This document shows positions 6,542 to 42,388 of a stretch of 44,182 nt of DNA, one piece after another (position 1 is the first letter of the stretch; every line of letters starts with the position of its first letter). The notes under the pieces are model-generated. The model searched no databases. It was not told the origin of the DNA and saw nothing but the letters and a program-made list of their open reading frames with translations. The position numbers were made by a program, and so were the translations under genes. Location: the IMG/VR virus record IMGVR_UViG_3300009182_002237, positions 1 to 44,182 of that record; one strand, 5' to 3'. Source of the stretch: a virus.

Positions 6542-6616
6542 GGGCCTATAGCTTAATGGTAAAGCATTCGACTCATAATCGAACGAGTCTAAGTTCAATT
6601 CTTAGTAGGCCCACCA
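6542..6616 (+). tRNA. tRNA with CAT anticodon (elongator Met or Ile2)
   Basis: Acceptor GGGCCTA/TAGGCCC, D stem GCTT/AAGC, anticodon stem TTCGA/TCGAA with loop CTCATAA, T arm CTAAG/CTTAG, discriminator A, encoded CCA. The anticodon is CAT; whether C34 is converted to lysidine (Ile, AUA codons) cannot be told from sequence alone. Ile2 would suit the AT-rich codon use. Confidence 0.93.
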
Positions 6617-19246: not shown

Positions 19247-19330
19247 GGAGTAGAAGCATCAACGGTGATGCAGTGGACTGTAAATCCGCCGGCTCTGCCA
19301 CGCCTGGTTCGATCCCAGGATACTCCACCA
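19247..19330 (+). tRNA. tRNA-Tyr (GTA)
   Basis: Class II tRNA with a long variable arm (GGCTCTGCCACGCC region). Anticodon loop CTGTAAA gives GTA. T arm TGGTTCGATCCCA, encoded CCA. Acceptor GGAGTA pairs with TACTCC; the seventh position is a G-A mismatch. Confidence 0.92.
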
Positions 19331-19338
19331 AGTTTTAT

Positions 19339-19426
19339 GGAAGTTTGGGTGAGAGGTTTAAACCAGCAGACTTGAAATCTGCCGATCTGAAAGGGTCCGT
19401 GAGTTCGAATCTCACAGCTTCCGCCA
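19339..19426 (+). tRNA. tRNA-Ser (TGA)
   Basis: 88 nt, class II, acceptor GGAAG.../...CTTCC, anticodon loop CTTGAAA (TGA), long variable arm, T arm GTGAGTTCGAATCTCAC, discriminator G, encoded CCA. Confidence 0.95.
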
Positions 19427-19428
19427 AC

Positions 19429-19503
19429 GCCCGATTAGCTCAGTGATAGAGCAACGCACTTGTAATGCGTAGGCCGTCTGTTTGATCCAGACATCGGGCA
19501 CCA
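19429..19503 (+). tRNA. tRNA-Thr (TGT)
   Basis: Acceptor GCCCGAT/ATCGGGC, anticodon stem ACGCA/TGCGT with loop CTTGTAA (TGT). The T loop TTTGATC departs from TTCRA at one base. Discriminator A, encoded CCA. Confidence 0.93.
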
Positions 19504-19509
19504 AAATAT

Positions 19510-19585
19510 TCCCCGATAGCTCAGTCGGTAGAGCGACGGACTGTTAATCCGCAGGTCCCTGGTTCAAGTCCAGGTCGGGGAGCCA
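19510..19585 (+). tRNA. tRNA-Asn (GTT)
   Basis: Acceptor TCCCCGA/TCGGGGA, anticodon stem CGGA/TCCG with loop CTGTTAA (GTT), T arm CCTGGTTCAAGTCCAGG, discriminator G, encoded CCA. Very close to bacterial tRNA-Asn. Confidence 0.95.
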
Positions 19586-19589
19586 TTTT

Positions 19590-19665
19590 CTGCTTGTAGT
19601 TCAGTGGATAGAACAACAGCCTTCTAAGCTGTGGGTCGCTGGTTCGATTCCAGCCAAGCAGGCCA
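19590..19665 (+). tRNA. tRNA-Arg (TCT)
   Basis: Acceptor CTGCTTG/CAAGCAG, anticodon stem ACAGC/GCTGT with loop CTTCTAA (TCT), T arm GCTGGTTCGATTCCAGC, discriminator G, encoded CCA. Reads AGA/AGG, the Arg codons favoured in AT-rich phages. Confidence 0.95.
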
Positions 19666-28492: not shown

Positions 28493-28757
28493 TTTTTTGT
28501 TCTGCTAATACCCGTTCATGTTCAATTGTTTTACCACGGAGATGTAGAACAACATCAACCTTTTGATTCAATCTAATTAAATCATTATCTAACATTCTGA
28601 TTCTATCAATTAATCCAATTAGAGTTGCATTTGCTTCACTGAGAACAGGTTTAACTTCTTTAGTAGCCCAAGACCAAACATAAAACACCATATATCCGCA
28701 ACCCGAAGCTGCAACAATAGGAAAACCATACTTATTAACAAGTTCCACAACATCCAT
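28437..28757 (-). CDS. Membrane protein with coiled coil, holin-like, 106 aa
   Basis: MDVVELVNKYGFPIVAASGCGY then a membrane helix (MVFYVWSW) and a heptad-rich helix (LIDRIRMLDNDLIRLNQKVD). A paralogue of the protein at 30417. Small single-pass proteins of this layout in phages are often annotated as holins. Function is inferred from topology only. Confidence 0.55.
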   Translation of the reverse strand: MDVVELVNKYGFPIVAASGCGYMVFYVWSWATKEVKPVLSEANATLIGLIDRIRMLDNDLIRLNQKVDVVLHLRGKTIEHERVLAEQKINAFVDDEDKKTASAGEG

Positions 28758-29368
28758 TATAATATCCTTTTACAATTATTGAAATGAAATCTGTTCATAT
28801 TATGTCCTTCTTTTCCTTCTTTCTCACAAAATGGACATTTTACTGTTGGTTTATTAGCCCAAGTTGAAGATATTTTTTGTTTAACTTCTAAACTATCTAA
28901 CGCTTTATTTATCGCTTCTTGATGAGATATACTTTTTTGTTTCCCTTTAAGCGATGAAGCGTGTTTATTTCCTTTTAACCAATCTTTTTTCATTCCTACA
29001 TGAGATTTAGAAATCCTATTTTTATGTTCCTCTGAAAAAATTTTACCTAAATTAGAAGAACTTATTTTTAACTTTATTTCATCACTGTGTTTATATGGAT
29101 TTAATTTTTTTGTGTATTTAATCTTTTCTATAGTTTCATCGCTTCGTGGACCACGTGGACGATGCATAATTAAAGAAATAACTTCTTGGTGATTAATCAT
29201 TCCCGATAATCCTTGCCAAGCAAGTTTGTCTTGCCATTGTCCATGTAATTCATACAACTCACGATGAGCTTTTGCATGTTGTTCAACTGTCAACAAAATT
29301 AAATTTGATTCATCATCAGTTCCACCCATATGCTTAGGAACAATGTGATGTTTGTGATAAATAGTCAT
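28757..29368 (-). CDS. HNH homing endonuclease with NUMOD3-like repeats
   Basis: 203 aa. N-terminal HNH-type domain: HKHHIVPKHMGGTDDESNLILL and VEQHAKAHRELYELHGQW, as in the HNH protein at 41186. Then repeats of the NUMOD3 type (HSDEIKLKISSSNLGKIFS; SEEHKNRISKSHVGMKK) and a C-terminal Cys pair (KCPFCEKEG). A mobile, freestanding endonuclease inserted between the two holin-like genes. Its leader has a late promoter and a hairpin shared with the gene at 34170. Confidence 0.85.
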   Translation of the reverse strand: MTIYHKHHIVPKHMGGTDDESNLILLTVEQHAKAHRELYELHGQWQDKLAWQGLSGMINHQEVISLIMHRPRGPRSDETIEKIKYTKKLNPYKHSDEIKLKISSSNLGKIFSEEHKNRISKSHVGMKKDWLKGNKHASSLKGKQKSISHQEAINKALDSLEVKQKISSTWANKPTVKCPFCEKEGKEGHNMNRFHFNNCKRIL

Positions 29369-29426: not shown

Positions 29427-29434
29427 TATTTATA
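29427..29434 (-). promoter_or_regulatory. T4-type late promoter TATAAATA
   Basis: Exact TATAAATA on the minus strand, directly upstream of the conserved leader hairpin and the HNH gene at 28757. Confidence 0.7.
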
Positions 29435-39831: not shown

Positions 39832-40508
39832 GTTTTAGTTTTGTTAAGTTGCCAGAATTAGATTTTGAATTGGAATCAGAGACATTATCTAGTGGTAGAT
39901 ATTATACAACACCTAAAGGTAAATATGCATCTATCACTACTGTGTTATCACATTTTGGTAATAAAGAAGCATTAAAGGAATGGCGTAATAGAGTAGGTGA
40001 AGAACAAGCAAATAAAATAACACATCAGGCAGCATCACGTGGTACTGCAATGCATACTGTATGTGAAGATTTGTTGAATGGTAAAGTTAATTCATTTTAT
40101 ATGATGAAGTTAATGCCGCATATAAAAGAATTATTTTTGCAGGTAAAACCTATTATAACAGATAAAGTTAATAATGTATATGCAATAGAACAACCATTGT
40201 TTAGTAATCATTTAAAGGTTGCTGGTCGTGTAGATTGTATTGCAGAGTATGATGGCAAGTTATCAATTATAGATTATAAGACATCTACTAGAGAAAAAAG
40301 AGAAGATTGGATTGAAAATTATTTTCTTCAATGTACCGCATATGCGATTATGTTTGAAGAGATAACAGGCAAGAAAGTGGAACAAATAGTGGTAATGATT
40401 GCCTGTGAAACGGGGTTTGCCCAAGTATTCATCAAAAAACCTGATGATTATAAGGAAAAACTAGAGGAATATGTCAAAAAGTATTACTTGACATGTAATG
40501 AAGTATGA
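39828..40508 (+). CDS. PD-(D/E)XK exonuclease (MGME1-like)
   Basis: 226 aa. ASRGTAMHTVCEDLL, then the nuclease core VAGRVDCIAEYDGKLSIIDY followed by KTSTREK (Asp, then D-x-K), and LQCTAYAIMFEEITG. Annotated as a DNA exonuclease of the PD-(D/E)XK/MGME1 type in T4-like phages. Probably processes DNA ends in recombination or host DNA degradation. Confidence 0.8.
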   Translation: MSFSFVKLPELDFELESETLSSGRYYTTPKGKYASITTVLSHFGNKEALKEWRNRVGEEQANKITHQAASRGTAMHTVCEDLLNGKVNSFYMMKLMPHIKELFLQVKPIITDKVNNVYAIEQPLFSNHLKVAGRVDCIAEYDGKLSIIDYKTSTREKREDWIENYFLQCTAYAIMFEEITGKKVEQIVVMIACETGFAQVFIKKPDDYKEKLEEYVKKYYLTCNEV

Positions 40509-40516
40509 TGTATAAT
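40488..40516 (+). promoter_or_regulatory. Sigma70-type promoter
   Basis: TTGACA 40488-40493, 17-nt spacer, TATAAT 40511-40516, overlapping the exonuclease end. Drives the outer-membrane protein gene and, reading on, the tmRNA acceptor half. Confidence 0.8.
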
Positions 40517-40584: not shown

Positions 40585-41034
40585 ATGAAGAAGTCTATTC
40601 TAGCAGTTTCATTGATGGCAGTTATTGGTTCAGCACAAAGCGTAGAAGTAGGTGTTAATGTAACTAAAGATTATAGTGGTACAGATCGTAATAGTCAAGG
40701 TATTACCGTTGGTCAAAAATTTGGTAGTGTTACTGCTACTTTAGGTTATGACCAGTTTACTAAAGGCAAAAACAATCAGGATCGTTATAGTTTAGTTAGT
40801 GCTTATGATGTTGCCAAAGTTGGTCCAGTTCAAGTTTCAGTTAAAGCTGGTGCCGCAATGCTTGATAATCAAACTGGTAAAGATGGATATGCTGTAACAG
40901 GTGGTGTTGGTTTATCTTATCCTATTGTTAAGAATGTTGCCGCAACAGTTGATTATCGTTATCAGATTGGTCAAAGTCGTGTATCGTCATTTGATGGTAA
41001 TTCAATCGGTGCAGGTGTTAAAGTATCCTTCTAA
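40585..41034 (+). CDS. Small outer-membrane beta-barrel protein
   Basis: 149 aa behind AGGAG. Signal peptide MKKSILAVSLMAVIGSAQSV; then amphipathic strands (ITVGQKFGSVTATLGYDQF; AGVKVSF) ending in a terminal Phe as in BAM substrates. About eight strands would fit the mature length. In the window's second outer-membrane set. A phage-made barrel could mask a receptor and so block superinfection. Confidence 0.75.
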   Translation: MKKSILAVSLMAVIGSAQSVEVGVNVTKDYSGTDRNSQGITVGQKFGSVTATLGYDQFTKGKNNQDRYSLVSAYDVAKVGPVQVSVKAGAAMLDNQTGKDGYAVTGGVGLSYPIVKNVAATVDYRYQIGQSRVSSFDGNSIGAGVKVSF

Positions 41035-41044
41035 TAGGATATTT

Positions 41045-41114
41045 AATAGAATTGTTGTATGAAGTGAAGTAAAAGGTGTTCTGGACGGGGGTGCGAATCC
41101 CCCCCGGTCCACCA
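41045..41114 (+). ncRNA. ssrA: Permuted tmRNA, acceptor (3') piece
   Basis: Carries the 3' half of the tRNA-like domain: P2 3' strand GTTCT and the conserved GGAC (41082-41086 region), T arm GGGGG-TGCGAAT-CCCCC (41087-41103), acceptor strand CCGGTCC (41104-41110), A and CCA (41112-41114). It cannot be a full tRNA, since no 5' half stands upstream. Its acceptor strand pairs all seven positions (one G-U) with GGGCCGG at 41646-41652. The upstream limit is approximate. Confidence 0.85.
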
Positions 41115-41134
41115 TAAGGGCATATGTTAAATCT

Positions 41135-41175
41135 CTGTCGATTATAAATAATTATAAATAAGTAACAATCGACAG
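41135..41175 (+). other. Hairpin with embedded late promoters before the tmRNA-inserted HNH gene
   Basis: CTGTCGATT (41135-41143) pairs with AATCGACAG (41167-41175), 9 bp, immediately before the GGAG of the HNH gene. The loop holds the two TATAAATA boxes. It could limit HNH translation in readthrough transcripts or guide RNA processing. Confidence 0.65.
41143..41160 (+). promoter_or_regulatory. Two tandem T4-type late promoter boxes
   Basis: TATAAATA at 41143-41150 and 41153-41160. They would transcribe the HNH gene, the tmRNA coding piece and the SleB lysin, but not the acceptor piece. Confidence 0.65.
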
Positions 41176-41185
41176 GAGAAAACAA

Positions 41186-41644
41186 ATGAAACACAAACAC
41201 CATATAATACCTAAACATATGGGCGGTACTGATAGTAAAGACAATTTAGTGGAATTAACTGTTGAGGAACACGCTTTAGCACATAAAGAATTGTGGGAAA
41301 AACATGGATTACATGAAGATTATTTGGCTTGGCAAGGATTAGCAGGGTTAATGTCCAAAGAAGAATTAGTCAAAGAACTATTGAGTATCGCAGGAAGAAA
41401 AGGTGCTAGAAAATCCAACATGAAACAATGGGGTGTTGGAAGTTATGATGATGGAATTCCTTTTTGGAAAAGAAAATCATTATATGCACCTGATGTTGAT
41501 GGTAGAAAAGTTAGAGCAAAAAGATTTTGGTTTAACAATGGTGAAAAAGAAGGACAATTTTCTTTGGATAATCATCCTGAAAATTGGACTAGAGGTAGAT
41601 TACGTTCAGTTATGAATAAAGTTAATCCTCATGTGTCTTTATGA
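41186..41644 (+). CDS. HNH homing endonuclease inside the permuted tmRNA gene
   Basis: 152 aa behind AGGAG. N-terminal HNH-type motif HKHHIIPKHMGGTDSKDNLV and VEEHALAHKELWEKHG, close to the HNH protein at 28757 (both have YLAWQGL/LAWQGLSG). The C-terminal half lacks NUMOD repeats and has an FWFNNGEKEGQFSLDNHPEN segment, often seen with recognition of an RNA gene or tail gene context. Its stop codon ends 1 nt before the 5' base of the tmRNA coding piece. Likely a homing gene that uses this RNA gene as a site. Confidence 0.9.
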   Translation: MKHKHHIIPKHMGGTDSKDNLVELTVEEHALAHKELWEKHGLHEDYLAWQGLAGLMSKEELVKELLSIAGRKGARKSNMKQWGVGSYDDGIPFWKRKSLYAPDVDGRKVRAKRFWFNNGEKEGQFSLDNHPENWTRGRLRSVMNKVNPHVSL

Positions 41645-41645
41645 T

Positions 41646-41810
41646 GGGCCGGATTTAGTTTCGACAGGACAATGAGTAACGAAACAGACAACACGACACA
41701 GATAGTCGTTAAAAGTAAAATCTTTAAATGCAAACGAAAGCGTTTATCAATTAGCAGCCTAACGGCTACTTAGGGTTTCGATGGGTTTCCTCGTAACAGA
41801 ATAACCCATC
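41646..41810 (+). ncRNA. ssrA: Permuted tmRNA, coding (5') piece with proteolysis tag
   Basis: Begins GGGCCGGATTTAGTTTCGAC, parallel to the start of E. coli tmRNA (GGGGCTGATTCTGGATTCGAC). P2 strand AGGAC pairs with GTTCT of the acceptor piece. The tag frame ends ANESVYQLAA-stop (41730-41762), like ANDENYALAA of E. coli. A post-tag hairpin AGCC-TAAC-GGCT and a perfect 8-bp stem GATGGGTT/AACCCATC (41780-41810) close the piece. Transcribed from the late promoters in the intervening segment and possibly from upstream. Confidence 0.88.
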
Positions 41811-41830
41811 ACAATCATAGGGAGAGAACA

Positions 41831-42388
41831 ATGCGAATACCATTAACCATAATGGGTATCTGTGTGGCATTTTCTGTTGTTGTATTATCAGTTAATGTGC
41901 CAAATACTTATTTCTTACCGATCAATGTCTCATATAAAAGTTTAACTGATCCTGTTAAAAAACAAGTTGATTGTTTAGCAGAGAATATTTACTTTGAAGC
42001 GGGACATGAACCGGATGTTGGTAAGGTAGCAGTAGCACTTGTAACTTTGAATCGTGTAGCATCTGGTAAATATGCACCAACAATTTGTAGTGTAGTTCAC
42101 CAGAAATCAAATAACGTATGCCAATTTTCATGGGTTTGTGAACAGGCAAACTTAAATAAAGCATTGACAATTAGAGATACTTTATTGTATAATAGTATAC
42201 GTGAAATAGCAGTAAGAGTATTAATGAATTATGAATTTATAGATGATGTGACTGAAGGTGCAACATACTATCATGCAGATTATGTAAATCCAGGTTGGAA
42301 CTTACCTAAGACTACAAAGATAGGTAGACACATTTTTTATAAGAAGCAGAGTGATTTGAATGATTTAACAAAGGAGATAAAATTATGA
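41831..42388 (+). CDS. SleB-type cell-wall hydrolase (endolysin)
   Basis: 185 aa behind GGGAGAG. N-terminal membrane or signal-anchor segment (IMGICVAFSVVVLSV), then the Hydrolase_2/SleB core: CLAENIYFEAGHEPDVGKVA (catalytic Glu region), LVTLNRVASGKYAPTICSVV, CQFSWVCEQ, and TEGATYYHADYVNPGW. Acts on peptidoglycan. The N-terminal helix suggests export through Sec, with release or anchoring in the membrane. The usual lysin of T4-like cyanophages is of this type. Confidence 0.9.
   Translation: MRIPLTIMGICVAFSVVVLSVNVPNTYFLPINVSYKSLTDPVKKQVDCLAENIYFEAGHEPDVGKVAVALVTLNRVASGKYAPTICSVVHQKSNNVCQFSWVCEQANLNKALTIRDTLLYNSIREIAVRVLMNYEFIDDVTEGATYYHADYVNPGWNLPKTTKIGRHIFYKKQSDLNDLTKEIKL
42164..42193 (+). 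promoter_or_regulatory. Sigma70-type promoter inside sleB
   Basis: TTGACA 42164-42169, 18-nt spacer, TATAAT 42188-42193. It would give early transcription of 42385 and dsbA-33-59-32 without making the lysin. Confidence 0.6.

Follow-up and report, generated by a model that had tools for sequence, protein, structure and literature searches.

The stretch of DNA analysed here (the window) comprises 44,182 nt, positions 1 to 44,182 of IMG/VR record IMGVR_UViG_3300009182_002237. It contains a circularly permuted tmRNA gene in which the 3' half precedes the 5' half, and the intervening segment (IVS) between the halves holds an HNH gene of homing-endonuclease type. The features of the locus are as follows.

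40488-40516, plus strand: sigma-70-type promoter, TTGACA-17-TATAAT, 12/12 matches
41045-41114, plus strand: 3' half of the permuted tmRNA; mature 5' terminus not defined
41078-41082, plus strand: P2 strand GTTCT of the 3' half, partner of AGGAC at 41666-41670
41087-41103, plus strand: T stem, loop and stem
41104-41110, plus strand: acceptor 3' strand CCGGTCC
41111-41114, plus strand: ACCA end
41114-41124, plus strand: 5' strand of the IVS-closing helix, pairing with 41632-41642 at 11/11 positions, three of them G-U
41115-41645, plus strand: IVS, 531 nt; removal by end processing is inferred from known two-piece tmRNAs
41132-41179, plus strand: predicted hairpin (arms 41132-41143 and 41167-41179) pairing the AGGAG ribosome site at 41174-41178
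41143-41150, plus strand: first T4-type late promoter, TATAAATA
41153-41160, plus strand: second T4-type late promoter, TATAAATA
41186-41644, plus strand: intact HNH gene, 152 aa; its TGA stop lies 1 nt before the 5' half
41632-41642, plus strand: 3' strand of the IVS-closing helix
41646-41811, plus strand: 5' half of the tmRNA (acceptor, P2, tag, then hairpin); mature 3' end not defined
41646-41652, plus strand: acceptor 5' strand GGGCCGG
41666-41670, plus strand: P2 strand AGGAC of the 5' half
41730-41762, plus strand: tag reading frame ANESVYQLAA plus stop

The order of the halves and their pairing in the acceptor and P2 had been proposed in a sequence-only reading, all of whose coordinates held; the tag frame, the Rfam matches and the relatives agree with it. 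Across the loci collected, at least 196 distinct permuted pairs of halves were recovered. The acceptor strands form seven of seven pairs, one of them G-U (G3-U70). A G-U at acceptor position 3 is an alanine identity element, and with this pair and a CCA end the window tmRNA has what alanine identity calls for. Its tag ends in hydrophobic residues followed by a stop, as expected of a permuted tmRNA. In half order, pairing, tag, alanine-type acceptor and expected processing the gene matches the permuted two-piece tmRNAs already known (RF04321, RF01849/RF01850/RF01851; marine phages such as Melnitz, PMC9004378, in the part of that paper available). A second complete tmRNA would have counted against the assignment; none was found in the window or in a related 161-kb contig, whose completeness is unestablished. 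No SmpB gene was found in either of these or in the 174-kb contig of L011 (L numbers denote the viral contigs compared), so host SmpB would be used if the contigs are representative. Promoter-like sites were about as frequent in the window as in shuffled sequence (7 found, 5.8 expected), and only the one at 40488-40516 matched at 12/12 positions; by inference, it may drive an OMP-like gene and the tmRNA precursor.

The 531-nt IVS, with an HNH reading frame that ends 1 nt before the 5' half, was as described in that reading, and the homing type of the HNH protein was supported: it matched PHROG 655 'homing endonuclease' at E 2.6e-15 and Pfam HNH at 20.0 bits, slightly under the cut-off of 21.4. 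The motif residues H5 H6, N20 and H29/H33 were invariant in 13 relatives. AlphaFold gave a mean pLDDT of 72, with 80-92 over residues 1-70. Foldseek against the PDB returned nothing at E <=0.001, and the HNH chains among its matches (8ydb_J, 4h9d_C) had E values of no better than 3.2 and 3.9. Among the IVS HNH genes, dN/dS was 0.06-0.30 in six pairs and dS was saturated in a seventh; the ratios are rough because many dS values exceed 1, and, with that qualification, they indicate purifying selection on these genes. Among isolate phages, no relative reached 80% coverage of the window protein, and one narrow pattern for an HNH gene in the IVS gave 0 hits in cellular genomes. Free-standing PHROG 655 genes of Synechococcus phages S-SKS1, S-B05 and S-SRM01 have a related HNH domain; their neighbourhoods held no annotated tmRNA and no match to the half profiles at E up to 10.

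Both late promoters that had been noted in the IVS are present. Across the whole window TATAAATA was not enriched (6 on both strands, 9.4 expected in shuffles), so its weight lies in its place and its recurrence in relatives. Both boxes sit at the loop of the hairpin at 41132-41179, which has a predicted stability of -11.9 kcal/mol (z -3.69; 1 of 200 shuffles as stable). Late transcription would presumably start at 41156 or 41166, going by the T4 distance from promoter to start. Transcripts from these points, which are predicted and not mapped, would be without the 5' arm of the hairpin; the piece 41160-41191 had no stable fold (0 kcal/mol, against -11.9 for the long form). On folding prediction alone, the leader fulfils the pattern of I-TevI-type control, with a ribosome binding site hidden on the long pre-tmRNA and free on late transcripts. 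The related 161-kb contig encodes a T4-type Gp23 capsid protein (459 bits). A switch between a hairpin over the ribosome site and late transcripts is described for I-TevI, I-TevII, I-TevIII, segB and Aeh1 mobE in the accessible part of PMC2988022, and the window shares with these a nested or intergenic homing gene, the hairpin and the late release; it differs in that its host is a split RNA gene without an intron and that its regulation is only predicted.

A hairpin before the start codon occurred in seven of nine distinct IVS HNH genes, and six of these seven had a T4-type late promoter inside it. The layout seen in the window was found with different arm sequences in L009, L012, L013, L202, L203 and L204 (z -2.20 to -6.81), the weakest being that of L202 (9 of 200 shuffles as stable). 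The exact TATAAATA was absent from the leader of L204, and neither hairpin nor late promoter was found in the leaders of L003 and L008. Mimicry of an operator, in which the HNH leader would resemble the tmRNA 5' half as reported for I-TevI, gave a mixed result and is kept only as an idea. Shuffles matching the 5' half as well as the real leader numbered, out of 500, 7 for the window, 6 for L009, 2 for L202, 70 for L204, 167 for L203, 401 for L012 and 484 for L013, and the match in L202 fell outside the D-arm. The leaders of the window and L009 each have the 9-mer TCGACAGGA in common with their own tmRNA 5' half.

The two ends of the IVS pair with each other in a covarying helix, which may be why an insert can be tolerated. 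In 159 distinct IVS ends, the bases from A76 of the CCA onward pair with those before GAU of the 5' leader. The register was fixed, with 83-98% of sequences paired per position against 41-98% with shuffled partners; at positions 1-9, where several pair types occurred, 0 of 1000 shuffles did as well. Registers slid by -3, -2, -1 or +1 scored lower at most positions, with single positions up to 97%. These figures are inflated by the relatedness of the sequences, and the set excludes L336 (2053 nt), L358 and any IVS <40 or >600 nt. The window lineage retains 11 of 11 pairs; the helix is lost from IVSs that bear a staphylococcal-nuclease-type (SNase) gene. The idea that it is specific to phages was rejected: of 35 cellular hits, five could be resolved as permuted genes, each with 9-11 of the 11 pairs, and 30 remained unresolved. 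As the five resolved bacterial genes have the helix, we do not claim it as new. The leader UGAU can pair with ACCA except for one mismatch, which may explain both the use of UGA as the stop of many IVS reading frames and the VSL C-terminal end of unrelated ones, found in three of four HNH genes in clade I and in L106, L309 and L322. The Rfam matches included no intron family, whether at gathering score for the whole window or with E as permissive as 10 across 40900-41950; the locus therefore does not qualify as a tmRNA group I intron encoding a homing endonuclease.

Relatives with the same site and no HNH gene, which the sequence-only reading had called for, were found in L118 and L195. Both tmRNA halves there surround an IVS of 66 and 82 nt, respectively, and the neighbouring proteins are 89% (RecB-like), 97-98% (OMP-like) and 91% (hydrolase) identical to those of the window. 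At the DNA level, identity is 93-94% as far as 41117 and resumes at about 90% from 41638 (L118) or 41633 (L195). The site thus has alleles with the HNH gene (the window, L001, L002) and without it (L118, L195). The acceptor of L118 and L195, GGGGGTG/CACCTCC, differs on both strands from the GGGCCGG/CCGGTCC of the window, which is also that of the HNH-bearing L009 group. As judged from the few groups available, the pattern fits a transfer in which the IVS and both acceptor strands moved in one tract; this is an inference.

The arrangement recurs in other viruses. Nine distinct HNH genes were found in the IVS of permuted phage tmRNAs, on 18 viral contigs plus the window, and belong to two HNH clades (window lineage with L001 and L002; L003-L007; L008; L009-L011; L012; L013; L202; L203/L207; L204/L210). 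All nine are in sense orientation, seven stop 1 nt before the 5' half, and the frames of L012 and L013 run 15 and 27 nt into it; the 5' half encodes a tag ending in AA at every one of the nine loci. In two scans not selected for the IVS, the HNH form made up 1 of 89 and 0 of 84 distinct phage tmRNAs among the matches listed, and an IVS of at least 120 nt was present in 14 of 89 and 7 of 84, again among the matches listed. The census left out any IVS >600 nt, and the figures of all three tmRNA scans hold among the matches listed (about 120 each). Within these bounds the HNH-bearing form is rare among phage tmRNAs.

Of 64 distinct HNH relatives, 9 lay in an IVS, 13 beside a tmRNA fragment or second copy, and 2 adjacent to a tmRNA; the remaining 40 carried none of these labels, which means that the family at large is not bound to tmRNA. 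Four labels rest on a 3'-half match alone (L055, L063, L076, L078) and one on two 3'-half matches (L017). Association with tmRNA is clustered on the tree of these 64 members: the split between none and associated took 3 changes, against a shuffled mean of 19.6, with 0 of 500 shuffles as low. The relatives were picked by similarity to the window HNH protein, and the tree was built by a quick method without bootstrap. The IVS genes form one group with SH-aLRT 98 (window, L003, L008, L009) and another with 97 (L012, L013, L202-L204, with the adjacent L040). A third group (support 97, 13 rows) lies entirely antisense to the matched tmRNA piece, adjoins pieces truncated within the T-loop or past the acceptor, and in several cases has a complete tmRNA elsewhere in the locus.

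Partial tmRNA copies beside an HNH gene were observed at ten loci (L015, L017, L036, L057, L072, L073, L075, L077, L079, L080), cut in the T-loop or just past the 5' acceptor strand; most of these loci also hold a complete tmRNA. The T-loop is also the entry point of group I introns into tmRNA genes. The antisense HNH genes of L015, L017, L036 and L019 have GGATCGACATAAATA or GGTTTCGACATAAATA directly upstream of the start. Both are near the two common forms of the tmRNA D-arm and are a possible operator.

Immunity of HNH-bearing tmRNAs through a changed target site was considered and dropped after it failed a control conditioned on the tag. The D-arm contained CGACAGGG in 78 of 85 tmRNAs found by a 3'-half pattern, which also fixes a P2 strand, against 0 of 9 distinct HNH-IVS tmRNAs. 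In a tag-only scan, CGACAGGG or CGACGGGG was found in 9 of 69 newly collected distinct loci with a D-arm call, among the matches listed; 6 further loci had no call. That set is depleted of canonical D-arms because previously collected loci were left out (18 of 80 among the matches listed). Non-canonical D-arms are thus frequent without an HNH gene as well, and we abandoned the idea. In L072 and L079, where the HNH gene lies away from the complete tmRNA, the D-arm is canonical.

The description given by the sequence-only reading is confirmed and its interpretation supported, as far as sequence comparison can carry it; the hairpin around the late promoters, the closing helix, the recurrence and the unrelated IVS genes were not part of it. 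The reading that we think probable is a functional permuted tmRNA gene of the two-piece kind whose IVS houses a homing endonuclease gene, the latter gated by its leader and spreading by cutting the tmRNA genes of relatives. Counting against it are the rarity of the HNH-bearing form, the leaders of L003 and L008, the overrunning frames of L012 and L013, the mixed operator result, the failed immunity idea, the many HNH relatives without a tmRNA label and the lack of a significant Foldseek match. Processing, timing, cutting and homing are inferred, without RNA or enzyme data, from observed anatomy, recurrence and conservation and from predicted structures. The upstream host-type promoter would make a precursor before late transcription, from which RNase P and 3'-end processing would excise the IVS to leave a two-piece tmRNA; as the IVS is removed in any case, the insert may cost the RNA nothing. 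On the precursor the HNH start site would be locked in the hairpin. Late in infection the promoters within the hairpin would start shorter transcripts, and since these would be without its 5' arm, we propose that HNH protein is then made. The protein may cut the tmRNA genes of co-infecting relatives, with repair copying the IVS plus the acceptor strands on either side.

The IVS might instead be a permissive slot in which the HNH gene is one tolerated passenger, with no homing at the tmRNA. That other, unrelated genes occupy the IVS (the SNase gene, a CxxCxxCC protein gene, a 101-aa reading frame in L412 and several small ones) is what such a slot would produce. A neutral slot fails to explain why three HNH clades occur at tmRNA in several configurations, including between fragments, and the purifying selection that the IVS HNH genes appear to be under also speaks against it; we consider it unlikely.

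The SNase gene (Pfam SNase E 2.6e-12) fills an IVS of 453-455 nt in 7 contigs (L130/L216, L217-L220, L227, L252), and in L252 its frame reads into the tmRNA 5' half. Three pairs of SNase genes gave dN/dS of 0.03-0.20, again roughly, with many dS >1. The CxxCxxCC protein is encoded in L099, L161 and L174. Small IVS reading frames (23-101 aa) were seen in L062, L097, L134, L143, L105, L309, L393, L146, L121, L087, L106, L322, L139, L099 and L412; in many, an AAGGA-type site directly follows the CCA and the stop codon is 1 nt short of the 5' half. Those of L062, L134 and L097 encode short hydrophobic peptides.

A decaying gene, non-functional or one-piece only, into which the HNH gene had inserted would account for the poor showing of the tmRNA in standard searches. 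The covariance check suggested by the sequence-only reading came out in part: RF04321 (tmRNA_permuted) matched both halves, and every tmRNA family stayed below its gathering score in the window. RF04321 scored 42.7 bits with the halves scored apart (cut-off 47, E 5.8e-7), in an alignment whose 5' part overlaps the last bases of the HNH gene; for the 3' half its score was 26.1 bits (E 0.0038). The beta_tmRNA family (RF01850) reached 32.3 bits against a cut-off of 84 (E 3.7e-8), and RF00023, matching the 3' half, gave 21.9 bits against one of 47. ARAGORN missed the gene, and its T-loop carries U55G, in the form TGCGAAT. The gathering score is a detection threshold and not a defining trait of a permuted tmRNA, however, and the same T-loop occurs in 15 distinct 3' halves tabulated, including that of L195. 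With the acceptor at 7/7, P2, tag and closing helix intact, and AA-ending tags at all nine HNH-IVS loci, we regard decay as very improbable. That the HNH gene is kept for another phage task, such as excluding competitors or regulating the tmRNA promoter, and not for its own spread, is hardly credible: low dN/dS and the operator-like TCGACAGGA common to leader and 5' half in the window and L009 (7 and 6 of 500 shuffles as good) would allow it, but close relatives L118 and L195 manage without an HNH gene at the site and the five other HNH-IVS leaders tested are without the TCGACAGGA stretch.

Beyond the nested, leader-gated gene that we favour for the locus itself, the evidence is evenly poised on a wider proposal: that such genes form a class of mobile gene using the end processing of a split RNA in place of splicing, with the IVS of permuted tmRNAs serving as the intron and as a slot for genes. 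The HNH proteins would target tmRNA genes; since the IVS has an acceptor strand on each side, repair would transfer the endonuclease gene along with a matching acceptor stem.

Each component has been described before: phage tmRNAs made in two pieces, endonuclease genes carried by group I introns of tmRNA genes, and the switch by a hairpin. PMC9004378 reports, where its text was available, 133 unique phage tmRNA structures, 53 of them two-piece and 50 of these 53 from marine or aquatic phages; the words 'homing' and 'HNH' are absent from its main text. In the accessible portion of PMC11915505, endonuclease genes occur in 36 of 883 intron-form tmRNAs, and one IVS contains a tRNA-Ala and another a repetitive element. 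The window resembles those introns in nesting an endonuclease gene within a tmRNA gene; it differs in having HNH in place of LAGLIDADG and, with no intron, in expecting end processing where the carrier in PMC11915505 is a self-splicing T-loop intron. It resembles the tRNA-Ala and repeat cases in having extra sequence within a permuted-tmRNA IVS, and differs in that no protein gene is reported for them in the sections available. A 531-nt IVS with a protein gene thus sets the window apart from permuted tmRNAs as covered in the available parts of PMC9004378 and PMC11915505, and the portions of PMC4131195 and PMC3978253 at hand report no IVS genes either. The earlier statement of knowing no described case stands within the open-licence papers searched, where we found no precedent for a homing gene in the IVS of a permuted tmRNA. 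What we did not find in print there is the combination, with end processing of RNA replacing splicing. The new element, as sequence comparison supports it, is the place: a homing-type gene in the segment, by inference excised, of a split RNA gene, recurrent and mostly with a putatively timed leader.

Besides self-splicing introns and inteins, these loci point to a further way for a selfish endonuclease gene to occupy a functional gene and leave its product unharmed: it may reside in RNA that end processing discards. They also lend themselves to testing how a phage sets the timing of a nested gene relative to a structured RNA, and the window gene, missed by ARAGORN and by the Rfam cut-offs, shows that annotation programs lose such tmRNAs.

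Several further observations concern the window and its relatives. In L009, L012, L036, L040, L055, L075, L086, L098, L114 and L126 the tmRNA T-loop reads GGCRGYN or GGCAGTA instead of TTCRANY, and phages with these loops include some with and some without HNH genes. In the window, five tRNA genes (Tyr, Ser, Thr, Asn, Arg) are clustered at 19247-19665, and a tRNA-Met lies at 6542. A second HNH gene (203 aa; 28757-29368, minus strand), which is not at a tmRNA, has a hairpin-like leader and, likewise on the minus strand, a TATAAATA box at 29427-29434.
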